This document shows, in pieces, positions 1-9,558 of a stretch of DNA of 40,713 bases. The stretch is from positions 1-40,713 of the forward strand of contig CALDUL010000084.1 in NCBI GenBank assembly GCA_937923575.1, given 5' to 3'. The position numbers were made by a program, and so were the translations under genes. Every line of letters begins with the position of its first letter. Positions within the stretch are counted from its first letter, which is position 1. The notes beneath the pieces were generated by a model. The model was not told the origin of the DNA. It saw only the letters and a list, made by a program, of their open reading frames with translations, and searched no databases. This DNA is from an uncultured Algimonas sp. GTDB lineage: Bacteria > Pseudomonadota > Alphaproteobacteria > Caulobacterales > Maricaulaceae.

Positions 1-1
1 T

Positions 2-250
2 CACTTGGGCGAAGACCGTGTCATCGATCCACCGCGCAAGGGCATGGGCGCAGAAGACTTCGCAGAATTCATCGCGCCGGAACTGGGCGTCCGCGGTGTC
101 TATATGGCCGTTGGCGGTACCCCGCCGAAGCAAATGGCGACGGCCGCCTCGCACCACTCGCCCTTCTTCAAGGTTTCGCCGGAAGAGAGCGTGACGCTGG
201 GAACGGAGGCGATGGTGGTGAGCGCACTGGCGGTGTTTGGAAAAGAGTAG
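2..250 (+). CDS. M20-family metallopeptidase/amidohydrolase, C-terminal fragment
   Basis: This is the last ~82 codons of a gene that begins before the window; the reading frame is open from base 2 to the TAG at 248-250. The visible residues match the C-terminal part of the M20 dizinc peptidase/amidohydrolase family. There is a G-A-E-D-F segment, where the family places a metal-binding region. A H-H-S-P-F-F segment follows, where the family carries its last metal-ligand histidine. These enzymes hydrolyse N-acyl amino acids or small peptides, usually in the cytoplasm. The substrate cannot be told from this fragment. The gene is followed by a palindromic hairpin and then thyA on the same strand. 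Confidence 0.8.
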   Translation, partial: HLGEDRVIDPPRKGMGAEDFAEFIAPELGVRGVYMAVGGTPPKQMATAASHHSPFFKVSPEESVTLGTEAMVVSALAVFGKE

Positions 251-263
251 GTTCCTCTTTTCC

Positions 264-288
264 TCATCCCGGGCTTTACCCGGGATGA
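264..288. repeat. Intergenic palindrome (10-bp stem, 5-nt loop)
   Basis: A perfect inverted repeat, TCATCCCGGG then CTTTA then CCCGGGATGA, lies 13 bp after the peptidase stop. It is not followed by a T tract on either strand, so it is a poor intrinsic terminator. It looks like the short dispersed GC-rich palindromes common between alphaproteobacterial genes. It may still stabilise the 3' end of the upstream mRNA. Confidence 0.6.
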
Positions 289-362
289 AGGAAAAAATTG
301 CGAGTGTGGACGCTTTGCCTCGCGCGCTTTGTCGAGTCGTCCAACCGCGCTAAGCCCGTCCC

Positions 363-1175
363 ATGCGCCAGTATCTCGATCTCCTGCAGCACGTCATGGA
401 CCATGGCACGGACCGGATGGACCGGACGGGGACGGGGACGCGGGGGGTGTTTGGCTATCAGATGCGCTTCGATCTGGCCGACGGCTTTCCGATGGTCACG
501 ACCAAGAAGCTGCACCGCAAGTCGATCATTCACGAGCTACTCTGGTTCATCGCGGGTGATACAAATGTCGCTTATCTGCAAGAGAACGGCGTCAAGATCT
601 GGGATGCCTGGGCGGATGAGAATGGCGATCTTGGTCCAGTCTATGGCAAGCAGTGGCGCCGCTGGGAAGGACCGGACGGCAAGGTCATTGACCAGCTCGC
701 CAATGTCGTCGAGGCGATCCGCAGCAATCCCTATTCACGCCGTCACATCGTCTCCGCATGGAACCCGGCGGAAGTCGAGGGCATGGCCCTGCCGCCCTGT
801 CACTCGCTGTTCCAATTCTTCGTCGCGCCCGATGCGGACGGAGGCCCGGATCGGCTCTCTTGCCAGCTCTACCAGCGCTCGGCGGACATTTTCCTCGGCG
901 TGCCCTTCAACATCGCGAGCTACGCCCTACTGACCGAGATGGTCGCGCAGGTCTGCGGGCTGCGCGTCGGCGACTTCGTGCACACCTTTGGCGACGCGCA
1001 CATCTACCACAACCACTTCGACCAAGTGCGCGAGCAGCTGGCTCGAGAGCCGGGGGCGCTGCCGCGGCTGAAGCTGAACCCGGAGGTGCGGGAGATCACG
1101 GCGTTTACTTATGCGGACGTCAAACTCGTCGGCTACAAGGCGCAGCCGCATATTGCGGCGAAGGTGGCGGTCTAG
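363..1175 (+). CDS. thyA: Thymidylate synthase ThyA
   Basis: ThyA methylates dUMP to dTMP in the cytoplasm, using methylenetetrahydrofolate and releasing dihydrofolate. The protein has 270 residues, close to the usual 264. The nucleophile is Cys146 in the [10 protein letters not shown] motif. The N-terminal phosphate-binding arginine lies in R-T-G-T-G-T (residues 21-26), the W-D-A-W segment is at 80-83, and the R-R-H segment is at 126-128. The ATG at 363 gives the standard N-terminus. Dihydrofolate reductase (folA), which recycles its product, is 3 kb downstream on the same strand but not in the same operon. The stop lies only 7 bp before the inverted repeat that encloses the GIY-YIG gene. 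Confidence 0.98.
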
Positions 1176-1182
1176 ATGCGAT

Positions 1183-1222
1183 GTCACACCGACGCGAGCA
1201 AAGCTCGCCCGGTGCCCATCCC
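1183..1222. repeat. Left inverted repeat of the GIY-YIG cassette
   Basis: This is the left arm of an inverted repeat whose partner is at 1565-1604. The outer 12 bp (GTCACACCGACG, 1183-1194) and inner 15 bp (CCCGGTGCCCATCCC, 1208-1222) match the partner perfectly in reverse complement. Between them sits a perfect hairpin, GCGAGC-AAA-GCTCGC (1194-1208). The equivalent part of the right arm differs in sequence but still folds. Confidence 0.85.
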
Positions 1223-1244
1223 TTGAAGGTCAAGCAATGCACCC

Positions 1245-1556
1245 ATGCACCAGACGCAAACATTCGTCGTCTACATCCTCGCCAGCCACAAAAACGGCAG
1301 CCTTTATATCGGCGTGACGAATGACCTCATCCGTCGGATCGAAGAACATAAATCGGCGCACAAGCCGCGCAGTCATACCGCGCGCTATAATATCAAGCGG
1401 CTCGTCTACTTTGAGACGTTCGACGACCCGGGATCGGCGATCGACCGAGAGAAGTTTCTGAAAAAGCTGACGCGGGCGCGGAAGGTCAAACTGATCGAGG
1501 CGGAGAATCCAGATTGGTTTGAGTTATTCAAGGGCGAGGATACTGTGTTGTGGTGA
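1245..1556 (+). CDS. Small GIY-YIG nuclease-domain protein (UPF0213-like)
   Basis: This is a 103-residue single-domain protein. Residues 8-22 carry the GIY-YIG signature in the form V-V-Y-I-L...L-Y-I-G-V-T, followed by N-D-L-I-R-R-I-E-E-H, which supplies the conserved arginine and histidine. A downstream R-E-K-F-L-K-K segment contains the glutamate expected to bind the metal. The C-terminal W-F-E-L-F tail is typical of the short free-standing alphaproteobacterial members. The family fold cleaves DNA strands or structured nucleic acid, but the target of these short proteins is not established. The ATG at 1245 is the only sensible start, and no strong ribosome site precedes it. The gene fills almost all the space between two inverted repeats, which suggests that nuclease and repeats work as a unit. 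Confidence 0.9.
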   Translation: MHQTQTFVVYILASHKNGSLYIGVTNDLIRRIEEHKSAHKPRSHTARYNIKRLVYFETFDDPGSAIDREKFLKKLTRARKVKLIEAENPDWFELFKGEDTVLW

Positions 1557-1564
1557 GAGGTCAG

Positions 1565-1604
1565 GGGATGGGCACCGGGTGACCTGCGGCCACGTCGGTG
1601 TGAC
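1565..1604. repeat. Right inverted repeat of the GIY-YIG cassette
   Basis: This is the partner of the repeat at 1183-1222. It contains GGGATGGGCACCGGG (1565-1579) and CGTCGGTGTGAC (1593-1604), exact reverse complements of the left arm. The middle reads, on the minus strand, GTGGCC-GCA-GGTCAC, a 6-bp hairpin with one G-T pair. Several bases differ from the left-arm stem, yet the pairing is preserved. Confidence 0.85.
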
Positions 1605-1625
1605 GCATTTGGAGTTAATATAGAC

Positions 1626-1660
1626 CCGCAAAGCGCGCCGGAGTGGCGCGCGCTTTGCGG
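1626..1660. terminator. Long GC-rich hairpin between convergent genes
   Basis: A 13-bp perfect stem (CCGCAAAGCGCGC and GCGCGCTTTGCGG) with a 9-nt loop lies between the GIY-YIG gene and the 3' end of the convergent PhnA-ending operon. No T tract follows on either strand. Its place between convergent genes suggests a bidirectional stop or mRNA end-stabiliser. It might also belong to the neighbouring cassette. Confidence 0.5.
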
Positions 1661-1697
1661 CGCGACGGCGATTTGATCCCCCGGATCAAACCTCACA

Positions 1698-2024
1698 TCA
1701 CGCCTTCTTCACAAACTCCGTCTTCAGCTTCATCGGCCCGATTCCGTCGACCTTGCAGTCGATGTCGTGGTCCTCATCCACCAGCCGGTTGATCCGCACC
1801 TTGGTCCCGACCTTCACCGTCTTGGACGTCCCGCGCACTTTCAGGTCCTTGATCAGCGTGACCCAGTCGCCGTCTTTCAGCACATTGCCGTTGGCGTCGC
1901 GGTAGACCTTCGCGGCGACGTCGCTGGCGGAGAATTCATGCGCGCATTCGGGGCAGACGAGCAGGGCGGCGTCTTCGTAGACGTAAGACGAGCCGCATTC
2001 GGGGCAGGGTGGGAGTTCGCTCAT
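1698..2024 (-). CDS. PhnA/YjdM-like zinc-ribbon protein
   Basis: A 108-residue protein, close to the ~111 residues of E. coli YjdM (formerly PhnA). The N-terminus has a four-cysteine zinc ribbon (C-P-E-C at residues 7-10 and C-P-E-C 17 residues on). The C-terminal domain contains the typical [15 protein letters not shown] segment. The family was once linked to alkylphosphonate use, but that is not well supported, so no reaction is assigned. The ATG at 2024 overlaps the upstream TGA in an ATGA, making this the last gene of a translationally coupled operon. A longer in-frame extension upstream would run back into the HAD-UbiA gene and is rejected. Confidence 0.9.
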
Positions 2025-3049
2025 AGCGCTAATGTCCCAAGGCTCAGCAGCCCGATGCCGACGACGAGTGCGTGAACAAACACCGCGCGGCGGCCTGAGT
2101 GCCTGAGCGCGATCATGCTGACGAAAAACGTCGCCATGAATCCGAGCGCGGCGGGCCATCCCAGTGTGGTGAGCGACACGGCGAGCCCGACGATCCAGAG
2201 CCCGACCATCGCGCCGACGGCTTCCGTGACCGCAAGCGTGCCATTGGCGAGCGGGCGGTCGCGCATATCGGCGCGGCGCCTATCACGCTGAATGTCGGCG
2301 AGGTCGTCGGCCAGGCTGACGGCGGCGAGCAGCATGACGCCGCAGAGTACGACCCAGAGCGATGTGCCCCAATCCACTGTACGGCCCAGCAGAAAGGCCG
2401 CGACCGAGGGTAGGGCGGAACCGAGCGCAAGAGGCCACATCACCGGCCGCAGCGCGCGCATGAGCGGGCCGAGACTGTGGCTGCGCTCTTCGAGAATGGT
2501 CACCGGCTCGCCCGCATTGGTCCGCGTCTCCGGCGTGTCGCTGGGTGGGCGCATGCCGTAGCCGGAATGGGCGGCCTCCCAGACCTTGTAGTCCTGGGTG
2601 GAATTGCCAGCATAGTCGAAGCCGTCGGGGAAGCGGTCGGTCAGGAAGCTGGCCTTGCGCTCGCTGGTCATGTTCCAGCCGATCTTGGTGCCGTAAGCCT
2701 CGTCGATGAAGTCCAGCCCGCCGGCGAGTTGGTCCACCAGCGATTGTTCGGAGCCGGAACACAGATGCACGGGCCGCCCGCTTGCGCGCGCGTCATGGGC
2801 GAGTTGCACGATCTTCGGCTCTAGTGGCAGGTCGCCGAACGCGATTCGGTCGCCGATCCGCGCCACCATCTCGTCCTTCATGGCCGGCTTGTCGCGCAGG
2901 CCGAGCCGGGCGTAGTGGACGGCTTTGAGCGGGTCGCGCTTGACGGCCTCCAGTATCATTTCGTGTGTCAGGTCCGAACGCAGCAGCGTGCCGTCAACGT
3001 CAAGGATGAGTGGGCGCGGCTTGGGCTTCGGTACGAGCGTCAAAGTCAT
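2021..3049 (-). CDS. HAD phosphatase fused to a short UbiA-like prenyltransferase segment
   Basis: This protein has 342 residues. The N-terminal half is a HAD-superfamily hydrolase: D-V-D-G-T at 17-21 holds the nucleophile and acid/base aspartates, and [10 protein letters not shown] at 146-155 supplies the metal-binding aspartate. The C-terminal half (about 200-342) is membrane-embedded and carries D-D-L-A-D-I-Q-R-D (248-256) plus R-P-L-A-N-G. These match the first aspartate-rich motif of UbiA prenyltransferases, which binds the Mg-diphosphate. HAD-UbiA fusions are a known architecture, but they normally have a full ~280-residue UbiA domain. This one stops after a few helices and lacks the second aspartate motif. 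ATGA overlaps join it to both neighbours, so the short end looks natural rather than a sequencing error. Substrate unknown. Confidence 0.8.
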
Positions 3050-8665: not shown

Positions 8666-9534
8666 TCCTCGACGATCTCTGCGTGTGTATATCCTTGAAA
8701 ATACAGGGCCGTACGTAAATCCGTGCAAGTGATCGCGCTATGGCTTGCCGCCGCGACGGCGGGTTTGGCGTAGAACGCCAGTCCCAGCCCTGCCGCTTCA
8801 ATCATGGCGAGATCATTCGCGCCGTCACCCACTGCCAATGACTTCGACGCATCGCCGTTACAGGCCGCGAGCAGGGCGGCGAGCTTGGCCTCGCGTCCCA
8901 GGATCGGCATTTGCACAGTCCCTGTAAGCGCGTCGTCTTCTTCCAGCAGGACATTCGCCTGGTGGTCGTCGAACCCGCAGGCTTTCGCCACACGGCTCGA
9001 GAAGAAGGTGAAGCCGCCGGACACGATCAACGTCTTGGCCCCATGGGCTGACATGGTCCGCGCCAGCGCTCTTGCCCCCGGATTGACCGTGATACGCTGC
9101 TCGAAACACTGCTGGAGCACATCGGTCGACAGTCCCTGCAGCAGCGCCACCCGTTCGTTGAGGGCGCCTTCGAACCCGATCTCGCCGCGCATGGCGCGTT
9201 CGGTAATAGAGCTGACGCGGTCCTTGACGCCCGCGAAATCGGCCAGCTCGTCGATGCATTCCTGCCCGATGAGCGTGGAGTCCATGTCGCAGACGAGCAC
9301 GGACTTCTTGCGGCCCGCGCGTGGCTGCACGCAAACATCGGCGCGGAGATTTGCAGCTGCGAGAATATTGCGCGCATCCGTGCTGTTTGCCGCAGTCCCG
9401 ACGCCCTCGACGGCCTGTCCTGGCGAGAGCGTCGTGACCTCGCGCATACCCAGCACGCGCGCGGCTTCGGCGAGATGCTCGCCCGAGCTTTGCGCGAGGA
9501 CAAGCGTCGTGATCTGGTCTAAAGTCGAAGTCAT
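8662..9534 (-). CDS. serB: Phosphoserine phosphatase SerB
   Basis: Dephosphorylates O-phosphoserine in the last step of serine synthesis. The protein has 290 residues. An N-terminal ~70-residue regulatory-type region precedes the HAD phosphatase core. The core shows V-C-D-M-D-S-T-L (81-88, nucleophile Asp83 and acid/base Asp85), the substrate-binding E-C-I-D-E-L-A, the phosphate-binding V-S-G-G-F-T (171-176) and the metal-binding V-G-D-G-A-N-D. I chose the ATG at 9534; an in-frame TTG at 9555 would add seven residues. It is divergent from miaA by 24 bp and converges with the Do-protease gene, sharing the four bases CTAG as both stops. Confidence 0.96.
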   Translation of the reverse strand: MTSTLDQITTLVLAQSSGEHLAEAARVLGMREVTTLSPGQAVEGVGTAANSTDARNILAAANLRADVCVQPRAGRKKSVLVCDMDSTLIGQECIDELADFAGVKDRVSSITERAMRGEIGFEGALNERVALLQGLSTDVLQQCFEQRITVNPGARALARTMSAHGAKTLIVSGGFTFFSSRVAKACGFDDHQANVLLEEDDALTGTVQMPILGREAKLAALLAACNGDASKSLAVGDGANDLAMIEAAGLGLAFYAKPAVAAASHSAITCTDLRTALYFQGYTHAEIVED

Positions 9535-9558
9535 GGGAATCGTCGCAGCAGCCAAGCC

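Follow-up and report, generated by a model that had tools for sequence, protein, structure and literature searches.

REPtrons pair GTAG-tagged REPs with a RAYT/TnpA-REP protein, which is an HUH Y1 transposase. Their characteristic traits are headed and tailed hairpins inverted around the nuclease gene, solo copies, and matched arms (PMC6006769, PMC3733652). The CGTC-tagged REPs were named in a 2013 survey, which describes them as 'apparently' lacking a dedicated transposase (Di Nocera et al. 2013, PMC3733652). There, these repeats are defined by a CGTC, TGTC or CCTC head, a stem of 8-9 bp that almost always starts with AT, a loop of 4-5 nt and mostly a CCA tail. The same survey reports CGTC palindromes from five phyla and includes Neisseria dRS3 in the CGTC superfamily as CGTC-1 (PMC3733652).

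We analyzed a 40,713-nucleotide stretch of DNA from an uncultured Algimonas sp. (the window), in which a 103-aa ORF located 3' of thyA is flanked by an inverted repeat. Like RAYT REPtrons, units of the window type consist of a single nuclease gene between small inverted hairpins, each with an unpaired head and a tail; further hairpins occur alone in other places, and the arms are matched to the protein. Unlike in REPtrons, the enzyme is a GIY-YIG and not an HUH protein, and the hairpin heads are TGTC/CGTC, not GTAG. These heads, and the CCCA that follows the outer stem in both arms, agree with the head and the CCA tail of the CGTC REPs. However, a 5-bp outer stem and a 6-bp inner stem, an AC/C internal loop and a 3-nt terminal loop take the place of the 8-9 bp stem. 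Because head and tail are kept but the stem is composite, the arms in the window are CGTC-related and not strict members of the class.

Results

The two arms share a fold plan when read in the same sense (Table 1). From the head, each consists of TGTC or CGTC, A, CACCG, AC, the 6-bp stem with its 3-nt loop, C, CGGTG and CCCA, with CACCG and CGGTG forming the outer stem. The heads point outward and the tails inward. The inverted repeat measures 44 nt per arm with 82% complementarity, and its alignment score is 28, compared with at most 14 in 100 shuffles. A GIY-YIG gene between inverted repeats, as described in an earlier note on this DNA, is thus confirmed. The 6-bp hairpin stems named in that note are correct, but they are merely the tip of the structure, to which the outer blocks add an outer stem, a head and a tail. 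As claimed there, stem positions 2 and 5 are changed on both sides and position 4 is now a G-T pair, with pairing kept. Folding z is -5.2 for the left arm and -1.05 (minus strand) or +0.69 (plus strand) for the right arm, so the right hairpin by itself is not unusually stable. A known RNA family was rejected as an explanation, since Rfam yielded nothing for window positions 1-3000 even with E values as high as 1.

Table 1. Features at the GIY-YIG locus in the window
Feature	Position	Strand	Basis
thyA (thymidylate synthase), left neighbor, outside the unit	363..1175	+	Pfam PF00303
Entire unit as inferred, from one head to the other (424 bp)	1182..1605	.	Ends of related units located at unrelated sites
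Inverted repeat	1183-1226 / 1561-1604		
Left arm	1182..1218	+	Inverted repeat pair, DNA fold, copies in other genomes
Left arm, TGTC head	1182-1185		
Left arm, outer stem	1187-1191/1210-1214		
Left arm, inner stem	1194-1199/1203-1208		
Left arm, CCCA tail, pointing to the GIY-YIG gene	1215-1218		
103-aa single-domain GIY-YIG protein	1245..1556	+	Pfam PF01541, residue conservation, AlphaFold2, Foldseek
Right arm, inverted, with outer and inner stems	1569..1605	-	Inverted repeat pair, DNA fold, copies in other genomes
Right arm, CGTC head	1605-1602	-	
Right arm, CCCA tail, gene-facing	1572-1569	-	

Two other palindromes are found nearby. A CCTC-headed one (CCTCATCCCGGGCTTTACCCGGGATGA) is located at window positions 262-288, between thyA and the upstream gene. 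The other, at 1626-1660, is a perfect inverted repeat of 13 bp that resembles a terminator and lies between the unit and the downstream gene, which is convergent.

The 103-aa ORF matches PF01541 with 55.5 bits (cut-off 22.6). In a 47-row alignment Y10, Y21, G23, R31 and N88 are invariant and E69 is conserved to at least 90%; Y10, Y21, R31, N88 and E69 are presumably the catalytic residues. The AlphaFold2 model is confident, with a mean pLDDT of 90.2. With an E cut-off of 0.001, Foldseek gives a single match to it, the UPF0213 protein BH0048 (1zg2), followed by Slx1 at E 0.005 and then UvrC, both weaker. Domain, fold and conserved residues are shared with UPF0213-type proteins and GIY-YIG homing endonucleases. 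In contrast to these, the units studied are mostly intergenic and have their own hairpin ends, and the sites examined showed neither an intron nor a fixed coding target. A defense-system reading was dropped because the GIY-YIG protein has no PADLOC match.

Related units are under purifying selection. Among 11 unit pairs, dN/dS is 0.03-0.12 in the seven with computable dS, which is below 1 in three and near or beyond saturation in the remainder. It was not computable in the other four, the window pair among them.

The hairpins covary. We searched 99 family genomes for the window-type hairpin pattern with its inner part left free, and found 16 copies in seven genomes; a reversed control pattern gave none in the same 99. 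The many dispersed copies typical of CGTC REPs contrast with this number. The 16 copies represent 16 distinct inner hairpins, loops included, and 14 distinct stems. In these stems, which were picked without regard to pairing, 99 of 101 inner-stem pairs are intact, 95 of them Watson-Crick and four G-T. A hairpin's own halves pair at 79 of 85 positions, compared with 62% for swapped halves. Left and right arms were then compared in 130 framed units of 204. Both members are changed in 176 pairs, versus 46 expected if they were independent; pairing is kept in 124 of the 176 and lost in 52. One-sided changes keep pairing in 67 cases and break it in 218. The alignments A7 and A8 were selected for pairing, hence biased, and were left out of the evidence. 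The earlier proposal that the hairpin is conserved by compensatory change is borne out by both comparisons.

The genome of the window (G000; 85% complete) contains two window-type hairpins, both at the window unit. Recurrence of the arms, which the earlier note proposed to look for in the host and its relatives, is therefore seen elsewhere in the family but not elsewhere in the host. GIY-YIG genes are flanked by six of the 16 copies, one pair each in G000, G021 and G032; the pair in G021 is direct and not inverted. The other ten are at no GIY-YIG place among the matches listed, which are incomplete for G029 and G032. Nine of these ten solo hairpins are located in G006, G009, G016 and G029, whose units, as far as they are among the part placed in the tree, belong to clades other than that of the window.

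Arms and proteins co-evolve. Across the 90 framed units of the family, the similarity of arms at non-orthologous sites correlates with protein identity (Mantel r 0.365, 0 of 2000 permutations as high), with orthology judged from flanks of about 0.4-1.5 kb. For units at such sites in different genomes, the arms are common to 61% of 59 pairs with at least 70% protein identity, 10% of 341 pairs at 60-70%, 2.9% of 1538 pairs at 50-60%, 0.7% of 1741 pairs at 40-50% and none of 248 pairs below 40%. Same-genome pairs below 50% protein identity share arms in 0 of 13 cases. Within the genus, a CCTAGG hairpin is found in the four genomes that have the corresponding protein clade, and one palindromic match to it in G012. 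At one genomic site, the loci L016, L017 and L020 belong to the CCTAGG-hairpin clade, and L012, with homologous flanks, belongs to another clade and has another hairpin. The window hairpin type is found beside close proteins in other genera, at a locus without a visible thyA motif in G032 and in a unit after thyA in G021. Fork support for the window-type group is modest (87/92), and the fork is drawn open.

Comparison of related units revealed their edges. In eight of 12 unit pairs, homology starts in a hairpin arm and the sequence outside is unrelated. Such edges are seen within and between genera, for example in L196/L201, L195/L240 and L157/L201. Also in the 12-pair set, L177/L209, L183/L185 and L164/L166 gave scattered repeat matches or no full-unit block, and thyA is common to L153/L007. 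One of the pairs (L223/L226) consists of two such copies within genome G034, which are 94.8% identical over 426 bp.

Units are also present or absent at a given site. In Azospirillum lipoferum 4B, a unit is located between sufB and sufC; among the matches listed, 11 other Azospirillum records match only 61-64% of this stretch, and three that were aligned are without the unit. In Sphingobium, seven records carry a unit that has fnrL on one side and a response regulator on the other; in four records the match is limited to 78-82% of this stretch, and the unit is absent. A solo hairpin is found at the unit-less site in two of these four, and none in the other two. In TomTYG64 this hairpin is identical to the two outer arm halves, and the TomTYG74 hairpin differs in two bases. 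Such a pattern would be expected if short direct repeats had mediated loss of the unit, or if the unit had inserted into such a hairpin. No target-site duplication is visible in the Azospirillum and Sphingobium alignments (A3 and A4), in which the junctions have diverged. In Sphingobium TomTYG73 (L137, 2501-2760), the GIY-YIG gene is frameshifted and both arms are kept.

The junction downstream of thyA, a comparison raised in the earlier note, differs among relatives. Of 16 genus genomes in which thyA was matched, 13 have no GIY-YIG match beside it (the G009 contig stops 152 bp beyond thyA), and the unit is present there in G000, G012, G010 and G021. The four occurrences suit retention as well as mobility. 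The gap after thyA (window 1176-1697; L038-L053) appears hotspot-like, with different small ORFs or a short gap in most genus relatives. Some of these small ORFs seem common to several genus relatives.

These observations bear on the strongest alternative, in which the protein is a domesticated nuclease with a host role, for example acting on hairpins or cruciforms, and the arms serve as its control or terminator elements instead of mobile ends. Purifying selection and the four units beside thyA would agree with this idea. It is nevertheless unlikely, considering the 13 genus genomes without a GIY-YIG match beside thyA, the site in each of Azospirillum and Sphingobium that is occupied in some records and not in others, and the homology that starts in the hairpin arms. 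A terminator-only reading was set aside by argument.

The distribution of hairpins follows that of the GIY-YIG gene. The CGTC hairpin is absent in five of ten family genomes without a detected GIY-YIG gene, versus two of 89 with the gene (Fisher p 7e-5, 99 family genomes, kinship ignored). The remaining five gene-less genomes carry 2-20 hairpins. Counts were made with stricter filters, and reach at least about 73-76 hairpins of one type in some genomes. Y1 transposases (PF01797) are found in 17 of the 99 genomes, and their presence does not follow the hairpins. Among 74 genomes with at least ten hairpins, a Y1 transposase was not found in 59 and a GIY-YIG gene was not found in two. G000 has no match to PF01797. 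A RAYT as the hidden partner was dropped since Y1 transposases do not track hairpins in the 99 genomes.

The same counts weigh on a second alternative, that the GIY-YIG gene is a passenger trapped by two REP or MITE copies moved by another enzyme. Gene-less genomes with hairpins, and the solo hairpins at the same place in two gene-less Sphingobium strains, could be explained in this way. Yet one gene family is found between such arms in several phyla, the arms covary with the protein, and most hairpin-rich genomes yielded a GIY-YIG gene and no Y1 transposase. We therefore regard a passenger as still less probable than a domesticated nuclease.

Framing of the gene by matching inverted arms is widespread. 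The test sample consisted of 30 genus loci and 80 mixed-phyla loci. Matching arms frame 20 of 29 genus loci (one short locus skipped) and 44 of 75 mixed-phyla loci (five short loci skipped; L054, L069, L116 and L124 repeat genus loci). Neighboring control ORFs are framed in 0/65 (genus) and 15/312 (mixed phyla) cases, those of 80-180 aa in 0/33 and 8/130, and random gaps in 0/64 and 0/288. In the family, 90 of 132 units are framed, which is not a random sample because the best-scoring units were taken first. When left flanks were paired with another genome's right flank, 13 of 299 combinations were framed. The framing test failed for 42 of the 132 family units and 31 of the 75 mixed-phyla loci; L151 fails it despite window-type hairpins on both sides.

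Tagged hairpins found with a strict definition are concentrated at the gene. In 66 of the 80 loci, their density falls from 4.72 per kb in the 150 bp next to the gene to 0.13-0.16 per kb beyond 1 kb (0.13 at 1.5-3 kb); in 46 genus/family loci it is 1.3 per kb within 150 bp versus 0.12 at 1-1.5 kb. In the 66 loci, tails point inward in 30/46 hairpins on the left and 35/47 on the right. A tagged hairpin is present on both sides of the gene in 25/66 and 5/46 loci by this strict finder, which misses composite arms such as those in the window.

That the symmetry is due to chance, with CGTC hairpins frequent enough in intergenic regions to flank any gene, is, despite the high counts in some genomes and the 15 framed control ORFs, practically ruled out by the shuffles, the control ORFs, the swapped flanks, the density peak at the gene and the position of both window-type hairpins of the host at the unit.

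Flanks of this kind at other GIY-YIG paralogues, a point on which the earlier note would have turned, are present in this subfamily and absent at L001 and L003 in the window's own genome. Another GIY-YIG unit of that genome is framed as well, by hairpins of a different type (L033, contig C56, match 9283-9543, minus strand). In G050 (contig C1, 2163888-2164694), two same-clade GIY-YIG genes, L248 and L249, are adjacent, with starts ~550 bp apart.

Hairpins in many of the related loci that were fetched fit the CGTC REP description, with 8-9 bp stems and 4-5 nt loops. The GIY-YIG locus L143 of N. gonorrhoeae is flanked by CGTC-type hairpins on both sides. The window unit belongs to a large bacterial set in which palindromes of the CGTC type, or related to it, are combined with a small GIY-YIG nuclease of a single domain.

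Discussion

The sequence comparisons suggest that the window contains a REPtron-like unit, in which, quite probably, a GIY-YIG nuclease and not a RAYT recognizes and spreads its own hairpins. The analogy to REPs and RAYTs drawn in the earlier note fits the framing, the covariation of arms and protein, the unit-less sites, the hairpin-edged units and the copies elsewhere. Points that speak against the REPtron-like reading are the loci that failed the framing test, the composite stem of the window arms, the lack of a visible target-site duplication, the low copy number of the window hairpin, the hairpins in gene-less genomes, the solo hairpins in genomes with units of other clades, the direct copies in G021 and the shared place after thyA. 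That note had noticed neither the resemblance to CGTC-tagged REPs nor the distribution over several phyla. The GIY-YIG/hairpin arrangement is real and general, and is without description in the literature searched. No link of GIY-YIG proteins with CGTC REPs or dRS3 was found in the titles and abstracts listed, which came mainly from open-access journals.

Most likely, the nuclease would bind its own hairpin type, by sequence and structure, as single-stranded or cruciform DNA. It may then nick at or near the hairpin head. Nicking would allow the unit, and solo hairpins in trans, to be excised, copied or moved, and host replication or repair could complete the excision or copying. Solo hairpins would be copied ends or scars. 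Slx1 is a structure-specific nuclease, and its related fold suits the cutting of hairpins or cruciforms by a GIY-YIG nuclease. The copy in the window may no longer move, and has possibly been retained for long, given its composite hairpins and its place after thyA, as in three relatives.

Somewhat less firmly, we favor the view that the dedicated enzyme so far lacking for the CGTC REP superfamily, dRS3 included, is a family of GIY-YIG nucleases. Its members would form transposase-free, hairpin-ended mobile units in many phyla, each clade would read its own stem, and solo palindromes would be copied ends or excision scars. If this is true, a second nuclease fold does for CGTC hairpins what RAYTs do for GTAG REPs. 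A testable enzyme is supplied for a repeat class that had none, and clades tied to their own stems make the question of what moves CGTC repeats a direct biochemical one.
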